Virus record (IMG/VR): IMGVR_UViG_3300025009_000151
Span: 1-49,888 of that record
Length of the DNA stretch: 49,888 nt
Source: a virus
Direction: 5' to 3' (one strand)
Positions 6,477 to 49,187 of this stretch are shown in pieces. Below the pieces are notes generated by a model. The model did no database searches. It was not told where the DNA came from and worked only from the letters and a program-made list of their open reading frames with translations. The translations under genes were made by a program, and so were the position numbers. The stretch's first letter is position 1, and every line of letters starts with the position of its first letter.

Positions 6477-6490
6477 AACAACCACAAAAA

Positions 6491-6518
6491 GACCACACAA
6501 CCTTAAAAATGTGTGGTC
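6491..6518 (+). terminator. Hairpin after the RHH operon
   Basis: GACCACACA (6491-6499) pairs exactly with TGTGTGGTC (6510-6518). The following AATCTATT is a weak U tract, so termination is likely but not strong. Confidence 0.55.
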
Positions 6519-6623
6519 AATCTATTCACCAGTTAACACCCAAAATACTAGCAACCAAAAACCGGTAAAATAATACCTTCCATTATATACACAAAAAACT
6601 TTAAACAAAAACATTAATAACTA

Positions 6624-6652
6624 TAGACAAAACTTTAGTTATATGTTATACT
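6624..6652 (+). promoter_or_regulatory. Rightward promoter
   Basis: TAGACA (6624-6629), 17 nt, then TATACT (6647-6652). The same TAGACA -35 box is used at 17950. It drives the gene at 6698 and the hammerhead RNA. Confidence 0.65.
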
Positions 6653-6659
6653 TATAACA
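6644..6659. promoter_or_regulatory. Palindromic operator over the -10 box
   Basis: TGTTATA (6644-6650), CT, TATAACA (6653-6659) is a perfect 7-bp palindrome that covers the -10 element, a typical repressor position. Confidence 0.5.
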
Positions 6660-6697
6660 GTTAAAGAACACGACAAACAACCGGGGGGGTTAACAGT

Positions 6698-6889
6698 ATG
6701 AGAAATTTTGTGGGTTATATCACAGAGAATAGTAGTATTCACGTATGTGGTTATGAAGGGAATTTTGTTCTTATTCAAACTAAACCGGGAGAAAAACCAA
6801 AGAAACTAAGGATGTATACAAAATATGCAACGAATGACTATTTCAAACTTAAAGGCAAGAGGGTATTTTTTAAACCGCAATATGTATAG
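6698..6889 (+). CDS. Small protein of unknown function (63 aa)
   Basis: ATG preceded by a G-rich ribosome binding site. The sequence is rich in aromatic and basic residues and beta-strand-like (MRNFVGYITENSSIHVCGYE, then KRVFFKPQYV). No family was recognised. Its stop codon (6887-6889) directly abuts the hammerhead ribozyme, so its mRNA would be cut just beyond the stop. Confidence 0.6.
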   Translation: MRNFVGYITENSSIHVCGYEGNFVLIQTKPGEKPKKLRMYTKYATNDYFKLKGKRVFFKPQYV

Positions 6890-6942
6890 CCTACCTGATG
6901 AGTCGTAAACGACGAAACATCCCACACAAGGGATGTAGTAGG
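6890..6942 (+). ncRNA. Hammerhead ribozyme (type I)
   Basis: Every part of the hammerhead fold is present. Stem I is CCTAC (6890-6894) with GTAGG (6938-6942). The core CTGATGA is at 6895-6901. Stem II is GTCG/CGAC (6902-6905, 6910-6913) with loop TAAA. GAAA is at 6914-6917. Stem III is ACATCCC/GGGATGT (6917-6923, 6930-6936) with a 6-nt loop. Cleavage is predicted after A6937 (a GUA site). Stem I is open, which makes it type I. Hammerheads are known in phages, but this one's role is unknown; processing the 3' end of the 6698 transcript or releasing the structured RNA downstream are the simplest ideas. Confidence 0.92.
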
Positions 6943-6946
6943 ATGA

Positions 6947-7071
6947 CAGTAACAAACTACCAACAGAATATAAGCCACAAAGCGTAACCCGGTCTAGTCT
7001 GCATGATGCAGGTCAAGGGTTACTGACAACAGACACGAGGCCAACGGAGCTAGATGTGTGGTAAATGTGGC
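6947..7071 (+). ncRNA. Structured RNA downstream of the hammerhead, with alternative pairings
   Basis: GTAACCC (6984-6990) pairs with GGGTTAC (7017-7023) around a CTGC/GCAG hairpin (6999-7011). An outer helix GCCACA/TGTGGC (6974-6979 and 7066-7071) could enclose it. CAGTAAC (6947-6953) can instead pair with GTTACTG (7019-7025), which uses the same GTTAC, so two folds compete. No reading frame fits. It may be a small RNA or switch released by the ribozyme; this is inference. Confidence 0.5.
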
Positions 7072-7146
7072 AAAATTAAGTCTTACCTATGTTACATAGA
7101 GACTTTATTGTGTGGTATAGGTAAAACTTAAAAAGGGGGTAATACC

Positions 7147-7446
7147 ATGAATGAGGGCAGAATAATAAAATATAATTCAGTGATTGAAGGGGATAATTCA
7201 TTAATAACAATAAACTCAAAAACATATGAAGGGTTTTATATTAGTTATAACAATTATGATATTGATATTTACGGATGTAAAACAACGGCCCTGGTACTTG
7301 GTCAAATGCAGAAATTTTATATTCTAAACGGCGATCATCGTAAACAATATACTGAAATTATTGAACAAGGCTTTGACAAATGCCTATCTTACTATAAGGA
7401 TAATATTAAAAATGCTAATAAATACAGCGAACGTATACTTTGTTAA
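7147..7446 (+). CDS. Hypothetical protein (99 aa)
   Basis: ATG with AGGGGGT upstream. Rich in Tyr, Asn and Ile; the central segment is YEGFYISYNNYDIDIYGCKT and the C-terminal half is helical (EIIEQGFDKCLSYYKD). No family was recognised. A leader able to pair TTACCTA with TAGGTAA precedes it, as for several neighbours. Confidence 0.6.
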   Translation: MNEGRIIKYNSVIEGDNSLITINSKTYEGFYISYNNYDIDIYGCKTTALVLGQMQKFYILNGDHRKQYTEIIEQGFDKCLSYYKDNIKNANKYSERILC

Positions 7447-7448
7447 TT

Positions 7449-7515
7449 ATTGATTGTCCCTGCATTGCTTATTTTGTGGGGACGGATGAATAATTAAATT
7501 AAGGAGGTTTAATCT
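7449..7515 (+). repeat. Degenerate copy of the leader repeat
   Basis: Shares TTGTCC..TGC, TTTGTGGG, AATAATTAAA and AAGGAGGT with the leaders at 7929 and 8401. GTCCC can pair with GGGAC to form the hairpin. Confidence 0.5.
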
Positions 7516-7906: not shown

Positions 7907-7928
7907 TGCCCTGCTGCAAGGCCTTAAA

Positions 7929-8000
7929 AATTGTTGTCCGTTGCCCACAATCATAATACTGTTTGTGGGTATAGGAGAATAATTAAAAGGAGGTAATATT
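7929..8000 (+). repeat. Leader repeat, copy 1
   Basis: Contains a hairpin (CCCACAA..TTGTGGG) followed by AGGAGAATAATTAAAAGGAGG and the start of the 8001 gene. Nearly identical to 8401-8470. Confidence 0.75.
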
Positions 8001-8402
8001 ATGTATAATAATGAGTATAGGCAGGAACTTATTGATTCAATGAAGGAGTTATCCAAGGATGGGTTCAAATGTTTCATTCTTAAAGAAAATCCTACTTATT
8101 TATATGGGTACATCGTAACACCTAATGACAATGTTATATATACCCAACGTGATAACTTTGCCTGGAGAGGTTGGACTTTTTCTTTGAAGTATAAACCGAA
8201 CCGTAACACTGGTAACGGGTGTCAATGCTTAGAAGAACCTATAAATAAGATAACAACTGAAAGTATACTGCAAGCGGAGAAGGAAGGGTTAGTTTTTGCT
8301 ACAAAATTAAAAGCTAATCTATACAAAAACAGTGAGGAATTTATAAACAAGGATTTGTGGAATAAAGAACGATTCGAGGAAATTTCAGATATTATTGAAT
8401 AA
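8001..8402 (+). CDS. Hypothetical protein (133 aa)
   Basis: ATG with AAAAGGAGG in the leader repeat. Predicted mixed alpha/beta; includes YLYGYIVTPNDNVIYTQRDN and WRGWTFSLKYKPNR. No family recognised. The stop overlaps the start of leader copy 2. Confidence 0.6.
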   Translation: MYNNEYRQELIDSMKELSKDGFKCFILKENPTYLYGYIVTPNDNVIYTQRDNFAWRGWTFSLKYKPNRNTGNGCQCLEEPINKITTESILQAEKEGLVFATKLKANLYKNSEEFINKDLWNKERFEEISDIIE

Positions 8403-8470
8403 TTGTTGTCCGTTGCCCACAACTAATATATTTTGTGGGCATAGGAGAATAATTAAAAGGAGGTAATACA
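8401..8470 (+). repeat. Leader repeat, copy 2
   Basis: Same layout as copy 1: TTGTTGTCCGTTGCCCACAA, short loop, TTGTGGGC, then AGGAGAATAATTAAAAGGAGG. It places the same hairpin and ribosome binding site before the 8471 gene. Confidence 0.75.
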
Positions 8471-8923
8471 ATGTATAAAGTTGTTAACCCTATCAAGAAA
8501 AAAACTAGGGGAGGAAGAAGTTATAATGTATTTATGGAAATTAATTATACTAATGATGGTAAACTGTCTATAACAGGAATTGAAGGGCCGTTAGCTTCTG
8601 GCAATTGTTTAGGTGGTTGCGGTCAGATTGATATGAGTTTAAGAGAGGAAGATCGCTCTAAGTGGTCATTTAACCCTGGATGGAACTCTGAAATGATGGA
8701 TAAATTCCTAGGTGTATGGGACAAATGGCATTTGAACGATATGAGATCAACTTGTGAACATCAACGCTCAAGAGGGGAAACTTATAAAAATAATCCTTCC
8801 GCTGTATGCCCTGATTGTGGTTATAAGATAGGTTCGGCCTGGTTAAAAGAAGACGTACCACAAGAAGTTATTCAATGGTTAGAGTCTTTACCAGAAGCTA
8901 AAAATAGTTATGCTTGGGTGTAG
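8471..8923 (+). CDS. Hypothetical protein with possible zinc site (150 aa)
   Basis: The first half has YNVFMEINYTNDGKLSITGI and a Gly-rich GNCLGGCGQID. The second half has STCEHQ and AVCPDCGYKIG, whose Cys/His set could bind zinc. No family recognised. Preceded by leader copy 2. Confidence 0.6.
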   Translation: MYKVVNPIKKKTRGGRSYNVFMEINYTNDGKLSITGIEGPLASGNCLGGCGQIDMSLREEDRSKWSFNPGWNSEMMDKFLGVWDKWHLNDMRSTCEHQRSRGETYKNNPSAVCPDCGYKIGSAWLKEDVPQEVIQWLESLPEAKNSYAWV

Positions 8924-9088: not shown

Positions 9089-9122
9089 CCGGGACTTATG
9101 CAATACATAAGGGGGTAATACA

Positions 9123-9587
9123 ATGGACAAATACAAAGTTATTAACGGAACCTCATACCACAAAGAAACGCCGGAGGCAGTATGTAATATATTACAACGT
9201 GCTATGGATAACAAGGATCGTATTCGTGTTTTCTATGGCGACGCCGACACTGGCCGCGTATGGTTAGAAGAACACGACACTATCGGCTATATTGGAAGGT
9301 CAACAGGTAATAGTAAAATACCTTTGTTAATAAAGAATACACGATCACTTGGCGGGGGTGCATTATTAGATAACTGTATAGTACGTATCACAAAGGGTTT
9401 GAAAGACCTGTATAAGCATCCAAACTACATAGAGCCTAGATTAGACGTTGAGCCTATCTTTAACCCTACCGAGGGTAATAGGTGGTATGTATCAGATAAC
9501 GGAGTATTGGTAGCTACTTTTGAAACAGAGACTAAGGCTAAAAACTACCGTGATTTTATGGAAGGTAAAAGGAACCGGCCGTATTAG
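9123..9587 (+). CDS. Hypothetical protein (154 aa)
   Basis: ATG after AAGGGGGT. Features RIRVFYGDADTGRVWLEEHD, TIGYIGRSTGNSKIPLL and RYVSD-like RWYVSDNG; an alpha/beta domain with many charged residues. It resembles small proteins common on plasmids and phages of Gram-positive bacteria, but no function is known. A strong terminator overlaps its stop. Confidence 0.65.
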   Translation: MDKYKVINGTSYHKETPEAVCNILQRAMDNKDRIRVFYGDADTGRVWLEEHDTIGYIGRSTGNSKIPLLIKNTRSLGGGALLDNCIVRITKGLKDLYKHPNYIEPRLDVEPIFNPTEGNRWYVSDNGVLVATFETETKAKNYRDFMEGKRNRPY

Positions 9588-44862: not shown

Positions 44863-46679
44863 TACTGACCACCCCCCATTGCACCCATTAGTGCTTGTAG
44901 TATCTCAGGCGGTATGTCGCCGCCCTGCGGTTCTGCATCCTGTGGAAACGCTTGCCCCTCCATACCTGGAGGTATTTGACCGTTCATTTGTGCCGTTACC
45001 TCCGGCGGTACGTTACGCCCTGCGAATGTACCTTGTGGGTTAAGCGGGTCTATAATCGGCCAATTCATCTGATTCTTGAGGAATAGCCTTGCCTCCTCTG
45101 TGGTAACAATACCGTTCTGATGCAACTCGTTAGTTGCTTGATAGAGGAAGGACACACTTGTTGGTAGACCTGCACCGATAGAAAACTCTAAGTCAAAATC
45201 AGCGTCTTTCGTAATCTGTTGTTGTCCTGTTTCATCCATAAGAGGTACGAGAGTGTGTTCTTCCATGCCTGTCTCAGGGTTAAATATAGATTTAGGTATA
45301 AGTTTCGGTATTGAATTAAGGTCTGAACCTCTGAACCAAATGTAGTCGTTATCTTTGGAGTTGAGTATACGGAACGCTCTTTCCTCTGTGAAATACTCTT
45401 TCACGTAGTCGAGCATAAGTTCCATGACTTCTTGCATACCCGCCTGTAACATCATTCTCTTGTGGTTAGCCCGTCTGTTTCCTGCCTCCTGTAAAGCTAG
45501 GATGGCTGCCGCAGCCCTAAGTGATCCCGGCTTACGCCCTTCCACAATATCTGACCTGCCTGATATAATCTCAGCCTCACGGAAGCCCATGTCACGGCGG
45601 TTCTGTATGTATGCAGGCATATTCGGAGGTTCTACCATTTTCCAAGCAGACGGGTCACGTGCTACCACATTTAATCCTGCCTTGTTCGTCCATTTCTTGG
45701 GGTTAATACCTGACGAGATTCCGATAATCTTTTGAATGTTACCCATAAGTCTAGCGTTTGAACGTATCTGGTCATCTAAATCATTTATTAAATCCTGTGT
45801 GGGCATGAGCAACTCAACGTCACCTGTACCCCACAAACGACCTTCGTTAAGGTAGCAGGGTGTTATAACACACGGGTACTTGCCGTGCTTGTAGAAACTC
45901 ATTGACCCTGACTTTTTACGGTGTTCTTTGCTGTCGTATATTAAAGTTTCGTTAGCCACAATGAATAATCGTAGAAATGGTACTCCGTCCTCTAAGTCCT
46001 TTACCCAACACTCTAAGAAAAATATCTTATCCTTAGAGATTGTATCAAGTTCGTCACTACCCTCACCCTCGAATAGTTGAATCGAGCGTGTAACTGACGA
46101 GTTGGCCGGACGTAAATCTTTAGCCATTGGACCGAATATCGGATGACGCTTAATCCAATTTAAAGGTTTATACATAGCGTGAGCGAGGAAGTCACCCTCC
46201 TGCATCTCCTCGGCCATTGTTACTTTAGGGTCGGGGAAAATGTTCACCGGACTTACTGAGTCGAGTATTGGTAGACCTTTACCACGCATAGCATTAGGGT
46301 CGTACCAAATTTTCCATGCCCCTGTGCCTAGTTTAAGCCGGCCTGTTTCATGTCGTGCTAATTTTATGAGTGTCTTATTTTTGTGGAGTAGCCATTTCAT
46401 AATGTGCTGTACGTGTGTGGAAAACATCTGGTCGGATGGTTCTTCGCCCTTCGCCATAACGTCCCAAGGTTGATCCACAAGGTCTGCTACCTGTGACTCA
46501 ATATTCGGCAGGATTATGTTGGTTGACGAGCCGGGATCCTCGGCGTTTATAGGTAGATTAACTCTACCGTAATAATAATCGTCGAACTCTGCCCAACCCT
46601 CATGTAGTCCTAACGCAGCCTTTGAGTCGTAAGCCGACTCGAATTTTTCAATCACTTGCCTTACTATAGGGTCTAACAA
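44862..46679 (-). CDS. Portal protein
   Basis: 605 aa. Contains NIILPNIESQVADLVDQPWD, SVSPVNIFPDPKV, GTGDVELLMPTQDLINDLDD and AGNRRANHKRMMLQAGMQEV, as in portals of short-tailed (P22/epsilon15-like) phages. C terminus is Gly/Pro/Gln rich. TTG start with GGGGTGAG upstream. It follows the terminase and a small membrane protein. Confidence 0.88.
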   Translation of the reverse strand: MLDPIVRQVIEKFESAYDSKAALGLHEGWAEFDDYYYGRVNLPINAEDPGSSTNIILPNIESQVADLVDQPWDVMAKGEEPSDQMFSTHVQHIMKWLLHKNKTLIKLARHETGRLKLGTGAWKIWYDPNAMRGKGLPILDSVSPVNIFPDPKVTMAEEMQEGDFLAHAMYKPLNWIKRHPIFGPMAKDLRPANSSVTRSIQLFEGEGSDELDTISKDKIFFLECWVKDLEDGVPFLRLFIVANETLIYDSKEHRKKSGSMSFYKHGKYPCVITPCYLNEGRLWGTGDVELLMPTQDLINDLDDQIRSNARLMGNIQKIIGISSGINPKKWTNKAGLNVVARDPSAWKMVEPPNMPAYIQNRRDMGFREAEIISGRSDIVEGRKPGSLRAAAAILALQEAGNRRANHKRMMLQAGMQEVMELMLDYVKEYFTEERAFRILNSKDNDYIWFRGSDLNSIPKLIPKSIFNPETGMEEHTLVPLMDETGQQQITKDADFDLEFSIGAGLPTSVSFLYQATNELHQNGIVTTEEARLFLKNQMNWPIIDPLNPQGTFAGRNVPPEVTAQMNGQIPPGMEGQAFPQDAEPQGGDIPPEILQALMGAMGGGQ

Positions 46680-47030: not shown

Positions 47031-49187
47031 TTACATGAAGTCAATGTATTCAGCCTCCCCCATTACGGTATCCGCATGTTCTTCGTCCTCTTTTATTGAA
47101 GGATGCTCCCATGCCCCTGAGTTTTTACGCTCATTATCCCTGCGTTTCTTCATATCCCACACGTCAAGCCAACCACCTATCGGATTGAGAGAGACTAATA
47201 AGTACGCTAGACTGTCAAATGCGTGGTCGTTCTGTTTCAAACGCTTACCCTCGATGTTAGGATTCCATTTTTGACTCTTTAATGAGTCAATTAGTGACTC
47301 ACAATTCTTACAGATTAAGAGTTTACCTTTGAGTAAGTATTGGTGTACGGTCATAATTTTTGTATCGTCATCGTTAGTTAAAGCAGGTTGTAAAGTTACA
47401 CCTTCATCTAAATAAGCGTCTGCCGGTGATACCTTATTGACCCCTCGGTTACGTGTGGAAGGGTCAGCCCATACCCACGTGAATCCATGCGCTCGTATCC
47501 ATCCTGCCACCACAGAAATATTAGCCTCTGATTGGTGATACTCATCAGTTATGACTACTAAACCTGTGGACGGGTCTTGCCTACCCACAATAATAGCCGT
47601 TGGTGCTGATATTCCGAAGTCGAAACCTGCCTCTTTGTTCCATTGTGATACGTCAATGTCCGCTTTATCGACTGTATGGGTCTGCTCGTCAAACTCTGTG
47701 AAAATCTGACCCTCGAATACGTCGAAAGATGCGTCAAGAAAGCGTTTAACCCATGTATCGGGGTTATTCGCCCGTAACATCTCCTCGTAACCATCAGGCA
47801 GGTAGGGATTTTCCCTTGTTTTAACCACAGTACCATAATAGTTGTTCTTGTCCCTACGGTTAGGGGAGAAGAACCAATGGTAAACCCAATCTCTACCGCC
47901 TGAGTTTGTGGTAACGAACCCTCGTAATGGGCCAACCACACCTCTAAGACGTGCTTGCAGCATTAAAAATGTGGACTCAGGAACTTCTTTGCCGTCTGGT
48001 TCGTGTGCTTCCTATTTTGGACTATATCATCATCTCAATTTCTTGAGAGTCCCCCGTTTCGGCTTTCGCCTACGTGCCATGCACTAGTCTCTGAACCTTA
48101 CTAATCAACATATTCCCACCTATAACCAAAGGCTATAGACTGTACCTTATTACAACAAAATCTAATCTTTCTAGCAAGATATGAAGTCTTTCTTGAGTAT
48201 AAGAATTTTGTCTGCTGTAACCACTCCGCTGCTTTAAAAGAAGACCTAAAATACTTATTATTATCTATACACCTTATCTGCCTAAGAGTTTTAGATTTAT
48301 GAGGTACAGCCATTAGGTTATTCTCTAAATAAGTACCATAACTTAAGTTATAGACCCTGTTATCCGTTTTAACATCGTTTTTATGCAATACTACAGGCAA
48401 ATTATTAGGATTATCTAAAAAGTGTTTAGCCACTAAATTATGAATACTATAAGTTCTCCTCTTAGCATCACACCCTACTAAACATACGCATAAATAGCTA
48501 TTGCCTCTGTTCTGCAGTTTCATTAATTTACATTTACCTGTGTGGTTATAATTAAGTGAACGGATACGACCGTAGTCACTAACCTGGTACTTACCTTCAT
48601 AACCATTAATATCTTTCCATATCTCCATTTTACTAAAACACTCCTTGTGTCTTATATTTGTTGATTAGTCTTGGCTGCTGATTGCCTGTAAGGGTTTCCA
48701 GCAATTAAAGGGATTTACAAGTAGTTGTCACCAACTACAATCGACAAAGCACAATTTTATCGATCCAAAAGCCGTCAATGTCCAGTGAACCCAACGGCCC
48801 TGGCTCGTCCAAATGGCGGAAAAGAATCTCTGAATAAATTTCTGGTTCCCTAGTTTTGATAAGTAACCTACCCCGTGTTTCCTGCCATTGAGCAATCAAC
48901 GCAGGGTTAAGCATATCGAAAAATGTTTTCTGCGTAGTTTCACGTAAGGATGCTGACGTTAAACGACCTACAAGAAAACGGCCTCCTGGGTAAAGTTGTG
49001 CCCACTTCTGAATCTCCTGTACGCCCATTCGAGTCTTACCGCCGCCTACGCCTGATACCATTGCCCTATACTTTGAAGGGTTAGTGTGAAAATCTACTTG
49101 GTGCGGTAAAGGTTCATATACCTGCTCCTCGAATTTCTTAGCCCGTTGAACTCTTTTCTTACCGGGACGGGGAATGGCAAAGGCCAA
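47031..49187 (-). CDS. terL: Terminase large subunit, split by a group I intron
   Basis: Exons 49187-48759 and 48011-47031 join to 469 aa. Walker A is GVGGGKT (46-52). Walker B is GFWID|EAHE, with the intron exactly between D143 and the catalytic E144. The nuclease domain has GFDFGISAPTA, WADPSTR and DHAFDSLAYL. It powers and ends DNA packaging. TTG start follows the TerS stop. Confidence 0.93.
48012..48758 (-). ncRNA. Group I intron in the terminase gene
   Basis: 747 nt on the minus strand. The 5' exon ATCGAT pairs with GTCGAT (around 48743-48738) with the U-G pair at the splice site, and the last intron base is G (48012). Core elements: AATTGCTGGAAAC and GGCAATCAGCAGCC (P4-P6), CAGAGACTA and GATATAGTCC (P7). 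Typical IA-type, phage T4/SPO1-like. Confidence 0.95.
48101..48628 (-). CDS. NUMOD4-HNH homing endonuclease in the terminase intron
   Basis: 175 aa. Begins IWKDINGYEGKYQVSDYGRI (NUMOD4), followed by IHNLVAKHFLDNPNNLPVVL and HKNDVKTDNRVYNLSYGT (HNH), and a C-terminal helix-turn-helix-like part (SSFKAAEWLQQ). Inside a group I intron; resembles I-HmuI type nucleases. Confidence 0.92.
   Translation of the reverse strand: MEIWKDINGYEGKYQVSDYGRIRSLNYNHTGKCKLMKLQNRGNSYLCVCLVGCDAKRRTYSIHNLVAKHFLDNPNNLPVVLHKNDVKTDNRVYNLSYGTYLENNLMAVPHKSKTLRQIRCIDNNKYFRSSFKAAEWLQQTKFLYSRKTSYLARKIRFCCNKVQSIAFGYRWEYVD

Follow-up and report, generated by a model that had tools for sequence, protein, structure and literature searches.

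What would a hammerhead ribozyme do directly behind the stop codon of a small phage gene? We asked this of a virus record of 49,888 nt, the whole stretch of DNA that was analyzed and here called the window. Its portal protein is distantly like the portal of Paenibacillus phages, and it also encodes a primase-helicase, DNA polymerase A, and other proteins. The hammerhead lies within a cluster of small open reading frames (ORFs), mostly without known families. A search of bacterial genomes with the portal protein gave no host or prophage relatives.

A complete type I hammerhead adjoins the stop codon of a small gene

By its sequence, the element at 6890-6942 is a genuine type I hammerhead, and self-cleavage is predicted. 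Its parts, all on the plus strand and assigned from the sequence and a base-by-base check, are as follows.

6890..6942, plus strand: type I hammerhead ribozyme, identified from sequence, minimum free energy (MFE) fold, chance estimate, and covariance model; predicted cut A6937/G6938
C6890-C6894 / G6938-G6942, plus strand: stem I, 5 bp
6938..6942, plus strand: 3' strand of stem I, with which the downstream product of cleavage would begin
6895..6901, plus strand: conserved core CUGAUGA
6902..6913, plus strand: stem II, GUCG-UAAA-CGAC (strands 6902-6905 / 6910-6913; loop UAAA 6906-6909)
6914..6916, plus strand: conserved core GAA
6917..6936, plus strand: stem III, ACAUCCC-ACACAA-GGGAUGU (strands 6917-6923 / 6930-6936)

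All 16 stem pairs of the 53-nt element are intact. The core has C3 U4 G5 A6 N7 G8 A9, G12 A13 A14, and the A15.1-U16.1 pair, which is counted in the 7 bp of stem III (loop ACACAA). Loops close stems II and III and the ends of the element lie in stem I, the topology of type I. The cleavage residue is A6937, in a GUA site (6935-6937) that fits NUH with H not G and that was also found in other phage hammerheads. An earlier note on this DNA had described a complete type I hammerhead with a 4-nt loop II, a 7-bp stem III, a 5-bp stem I, and GUA at A6937, and core, pairing, fold, and covariance model all bear out that description.

The hammerhead fold is unlikely to have arisen by chance. The unconstrained MFE structure of 6886-6946 was exactly the hammerhead fold (-19.5 kcal/mol), and shuffles of the same segment gave -9.7 +/- 2.5 kcal/mol (z -4.0). 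CUGAUGA occurs four times in the window, and only the copy at 6890-6942 has the three stems. There was no full motif, defined by stems of at least 4/4/5 bp, in 1.31 Gb of order-1 Markov sequence searched on both strands (108,913 CTGATGA cores). By eye, we saw no clear contact between stem I and loop II and no clear pseudoknot in the window hammerhead sequence. In longer transcripts, a thermodynamic model that excludes tertiary contacts and co-transcriptional folding predicted that the 5-bp stem I is out-competed by pairing of GUAG 6938-6941 with CUAC 6957-6960 and by pairing with upstream ORF sequence (Vienna folds).

The cut-offs of public RNA families missed the element. The window hammerhead has the same catalytic core as Rfam Hammerhead_1 (RF00163), Hammerhead_3 (RF00008), and RAGATH-1-hammerhead (RF03152) and differs in falling under every gathering cut-off; at those cut-offs no Rfam family was found anywhere in the window. 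At relaxed thresholds the only hammerhead matches were Hammerhead_3 (24.7 bits), which was mis-registered with the wrong topology, and RAGATH-1 (17.3 bits). Our answer was a covariance model of our own, trained on 46 phage type I hammerheads in IMG/VR with the window left out; it scored the window hammerhead at 44.8 bits (E 4.9e-12). The same model gave 58.8 bits for a hammerhead in Agrobacterium phage OLIVR1 and 52.2 bits for one in Xanthomonas phage RiverRider. Twelve other phage hammerhead loci also had no gathering-level Rfam hammerhead match, so the Rfam cut-offs miss this class. With RF00163, OLIVR1 (31.4) and a distant relative of the window phage, described below (26.0), scored below the cut-off of 34. 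Of the covariance-model search that the earlier note had proposed, the part based on Rfam hammerhead families thus came out negative, and support came from the phage type I model.

A distant relative keeps the stems

Relatives of the window phage were located through the portal protein. The distant one, G005 (47,492 nt; proteins mostly 30-70% identical), has a hammerhead at 47,413-47,466 that scored 40.7 bits with the phage covariance model. It starts 1 nt after the stop codon of an unrelated 110-aa ORF and, with the contig taken as circular, shares with the window hammerhead a location among small genes clustered upstream of the replication block. Comparing the window with this putative counterpart, 7 of the 16 pairs were changed on both sides, 9 were identical, and none was broken. 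Stem II has the same UAAA loop with its fourth pair swapped. In the core, the difference is at N7, a free position, and C takes the place of the window's A as the cleavage residue. With A at N7, this hammerhead escaped a plain pattern search and was picked up by the covariance model. In G005, the Shine-Dalgarno sequence of the following gene starts within the 3' strand of stem I. The earlier note had pointed to relatives with broken stems or core as the result that would speak against a hammerhead. G005, with all its pairs kept, is no such case, and in the nearest relative, G002, the whole element is absent rather than broken.

G005 also has a second arrangement of this region. The first 77 nt of its contig are an exact repeat of a promoter segment at 46,513-46,589, and at the contig start that segment runs straight into the hammerhead's 3' half and the gene after it, without the ORFs. 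The two arrangements are thus promoter-hammerhead 3' half (L139 1-134) and promoter-leader-ORFs-hammerhead (L141 6513-7492). This junction without the ORFs is suggestive only: it coincides with the end of a contig and may have arisen in assembly. The G005 promoter string also turned up in L146, a third contig, as a chance match.

The nearest relative lacks the small gene and the hammerhead together

Comparison with G002 (contig L136; DNA about 88% identical over shared stretches) delimits a unit that carries both the small gene and the ribozyme. The features of this region are as follows.

6624..6652, plus strand: candidate sigma-70-like extended -10 promoter, TAGACA-N17-TATACT, by consensus match only
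6671..6680, plus strand: left copy of an imperfect direct repeat, CGACAAACAA, from overlapping alignments with L136
6681..6944, plus strand: 264-nt unit with ORF63 and the whole hammerhead, absent from G002 (query gap 264, subject overlap 11)
6698..6889, plus strand: ORF63, 63 aa, its UAG stop (6887-6889) adjoining the hammerhead
6945-6955, plus strand: right copy of the imperfect direct repeat, GACAGTAACAA, from overlapping alignments with L136
6974..7071, plus strand: structured leader RNA with outer stem 6974-6979/7066-7071, 85% identical in G002
7076..7131, plus strand: long hairpin just 5' of the Shine-Dalgarno sequence of the next gene
7147..7446, plus strand: ORF99, 99 aa, downstream of the leader; the ORF that follows this leader in G002 is not related to it

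Window positions 6481-6680 (86%) and 6945-7150 (85%) matched L136 contiguously; the two pieces are adjacent in G002. Their alignments overlap by 11 nt there because an imperfect repeat flanks the unit in the window, CGACAAACAA and GACAGTAACAA, where G002 holds the single copy GACAGAAACAA. This comparison is based on BLAST alignments; MAFFT of the whole inserted region misplaced the upstream part of L136. A search with all filters off found no hammerhead left in the corresponding part of G002. ORF63 had no homolog by family profiles or in IMG/VR or phage records.

The neighbors on both sides of the unit are shared by the two phages. G002 keeps the promoter-like site as TAGACA-N17-TAGAAT, and both copies have the 17-nt spacing and TG before the -10; the number of such matches is near chance, and it is the conservation in G002 that argues for a promoter. 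A hairpin, GACCACACA/TGTGTGGTC, lies between the preceding genes and the promoter (window 6489-6518) and is kept in G002 with a changed loop; it resembles a terminator or may be a protein site. On the other side, 6945-7146 is 85% identical to G002 and has a consensus fold with 4 double-changed pairs, a count from two sequences only. In IMG/VR, G002 was the only match to this leader. A possible pseudoknot seen by eye, GUCUAG/CUAGAU, is not preserved unchanged in G002. In the downstream structured RNA, Rfam found neither a further ribozyme nor a known RNA family at gathering or relaxed thresholds. An ORF of 14 codons located directly behind stem I (6943-6987) is probably no gene, because its ATG is missing from G002.

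Intergenic leaders recur within the window (7100-7154, 7433-7512, 7924-8011, 8395-8478, and 9109-9131), several of them ending in AAGGRGGTAATA-ATG. They are 78-90% identical in G002 up to about the start codon and most of the ORFs behind them are unrelated, and thus the region behaves as conserved leaders with exchanged genes.

Promoter and leader flank this site in both phages, and the gene and hammerhead form one unit that was gained or lost between them. As judged from the alignments, ORF63 plus the hammerhead is one present/absent unit between a conserved candidate promoter and a conserved leader RNA. Gain in the window and loss in G002 fit this pair equally well, and the pair is not polarized. 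It is the only clean present/absent pair; we found no second clean empty site among the other surveyed hammerhead loci. What is new here is this unit and its counterpart in G002, where the same promoter is joined directly to the same leader. The earlier note had also placed the element in a phage accessory region, against the stop codon of a small gene and with a structured RNA behind it, and this holds: the UAG lies directly before 6890, and the leader (6974-7071) and hairpin (7076-7131) follow.

Phage hammerheads are common and often overlap the preceding stop codon

We scanned IMG/VR with a query consisting of the hammerhead core and three stem II pairs, and at least 120 contigs matched. 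Among the matches listed there were 124 distinct sites (window included), 86 with type I stems and 24 with type III, and most of the matches were hammerheads in the gap from one gene's stop codon to the following gene. The alignment of phage hammerheads had 99.9% of cells paired in a set chosen for pairing; this near-perfect pairing is partly by construction, because the parser required stems. The earlier note had called a phage example tied to a small operon rare enough to study. Rarity did not hold up, given these contigs and the clustering in prophages published in 2011 (PMC3088659); phage hammerheads are common between genes, and the ribozyme itself is therefore not rare.

Gene positions, with ORFs called by a simple rule, were counted for the 71 distinct type I hammerheads with enough flank among the matches listed. 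An upstream stop codon lay within -12 to +10 nt of stem I in 46 of the 71 (8.9% of random positions), and in 54 the cut was followed by a start codon no more than 60 nt away (random 45%; median 27.5 nt). A stop (within 60 nt) together with a start codon was present in 42, compared with 11.8% of random positions. In about 12 of the 71 the stop codon is apparently the UGA inside CUGAUGA, which corresponds to stop gaps of -9 and -10.

Two of the loci deserve separate mention. One contig (L108) has five near-identical hammerheads (1892, 2389, 2867, 4170, and 6151) between small genes within about 4.3 kb. In RiverRider, the hammerhead (L148 1610-1659) is about 350 nt before a tRNA gene cluster and is unannotated in the record.

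The hammerhead as a proposed edge of a small gene cassette

Our preferred explanation, which we hold to be probable by a modest degree, is that the hammerhead closes a small gene cassette on its 3' side and acts like an insulator between the ORF63 mRNA and the next leader. From the motif, its conserved structure, its position, and the present/absent unit, we infer cleavage, promoter use, and an insulating effect. RNA would start at the candidate promoter and run through ORF63, the hammerhead, and the leader into ORF99, and the hammerhead would cut it after A6937. The ORF63 mRNA would be split off, ending in the ribozyme stems with a 2',3'-cyclic phosphate, and the leader product would start with 5'-OH GUAGGAU followed by GACAGUAAC. 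The new 5' end would be 7 nt before the point at which the cassette-free sequence resumes, close to the cassette-free RNA; by sequence, the predicted cut product and the cassette-free leader differ in no more than a short stretch at the 5' end. A cut that separates the ORF63 mRNA and gives a nearly cassette-free leader end would be insulator-like: a gene could stand between promoter and leader, or be missing from there, and the upstream mRNA would not stay attached to the next control RNA. The arrangement thus suggests that the ribozyme frees the next gene's control RNA from an extra upstream gene.

Several points count against an insulator at this site. The next start codon is 209 nt away, and in most phage hammerheads the distance is about 20-40 nt. 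The predicted displacement of stem I in longer transcripts would also weigh against it, no stem I-loop II contact was assignable, and the present/absent evidence comes from a single unpolarized pair.

As a tentative extension that we think possible and somewhat doubtful, phage hammerheads in general may be boundaries of exchangeable cassettes. They would move together with the gene upstream of them, have its stop codon in common with it (in many cases the UGA of the CUGAUGA core), and cut only once the terminating ribosome is gone, which would couple mRNA processing to translation termination; the next gene's leader would be insulated from whichever gene stands before it.

The downstream RNA could instead be the purpose of the cut. 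The hammerhead would then mature the 5' end of the RNA at 6974-7131, itself functional as a leader riboregulator or small RNA, and the upstream gene would be incidental. The identity of the leader in phages whose downstream ORFs are unrelated, and its double-changed pairs, are consistent with a functional RNA, although two sequences are too few to test its structure. G002 keeps the leader without any hammerhead, so the leader 5' end needs no ribozyme maturation in general, and we consider this explanation unlikely.

A main effect on the ORF63 mRNA, setting its 3' end or lifetime, seems to us rather improbable. With a ribosome terminating at UAG 6887-6889, the core and the 5' strand of stem I would both lie under it, and translation could in this way gate the cut. 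The stop codon adjoining stem I, the stops in or near stem I or the core in the survey (about 12 of those 46 apparently being the UGA of CUGAUGA), and the joint presence or absence of ORF63 and hammerhead all point to the upstream gene, but tight gene packing alone would also put a stop codon beside the ribozyme.

It is quite improbable that the hammerhead is functionless in this phage, a passenger or a relic in decay that came along with a horizontally acquired gene. The region is an accessory one with fast gene turnover, no ORF63 ortholog was found, and stem I is only 5 bp and predicted to lose out in long transcripts. Against this, the core and every pair are intact, and hammerheads of related and unrelated phages, in a set chosen for pairing, keep their pairing as sequences diverge. 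We give almost no weight to a part in a circular-RNA or retrozyme-like element with two ribozymes or a unit repeat: hammerheads are generally known to be typical of such elements (PMC7761336), but this record has a single hammerhead, Rfam gave no other ribozyme, the unit is not repeated in tandem, and the genes scanned had no reverse-transcriptase match.

Comparison with known systems

Perreault et al. (PMC3088659) described in 2011 hammerheads that flank single genes or gene blocks in prophages. They suggested that long phage transcripts are processed into mRNAs of single-gene or operon length, and found clustered prophage hammerheads active in vitro and the A. tumefaciens one active in E. 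coli. The window hammerhead is like these in its core, three stems, and position between genes of a phage operon. It differs in being the only one in the window, in its GUA site, in a next gene set well back behind a structured leader, and in having a relative that shows gene and ribozyme as a present/absent unit, with promoter joined to leader.

The insulating principle has an engineered parallel in RiboJ, which was made from the sTRSV hammerhead and works by removing upstream leader RNA (PMC6206723). The likeness, self-cleavage that removes upstream RNA and leaves a standard 5' end for the downstream gene, is one of principle, cleavage here being predicted. The window hammerhead is natural, follows a coding gene, and is without the short hairpin directly behind RiboJ.

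Two isolated phages of the Schitoviridae have hammerheads in their own settings. That of OLIVR1 has small genes around it and an annotated gene about 20 nt downstream; that of RiverRider precedes a tRNA cluster, unlike the one in the window.

What the pair of phages means for phage hammerheads

The cut-offs of public RNA families miss many members of a large class of phage hammerheads, whose role in phages has been an open question since large numbers were found. What makes this locus interesting is the natural pair of phages with and without the unit, together with how regularly such ribozymes overlap stop codons; a hammerhead in a phage is not in itself the point. Because the two phages have the promoter and leader in common, active, dead, and absent ribozymes can be compared directly. 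The ribozyme is regularly on the stop codon of the preceding gene, and a coupling of its cleavage to translation would therefore be testable.
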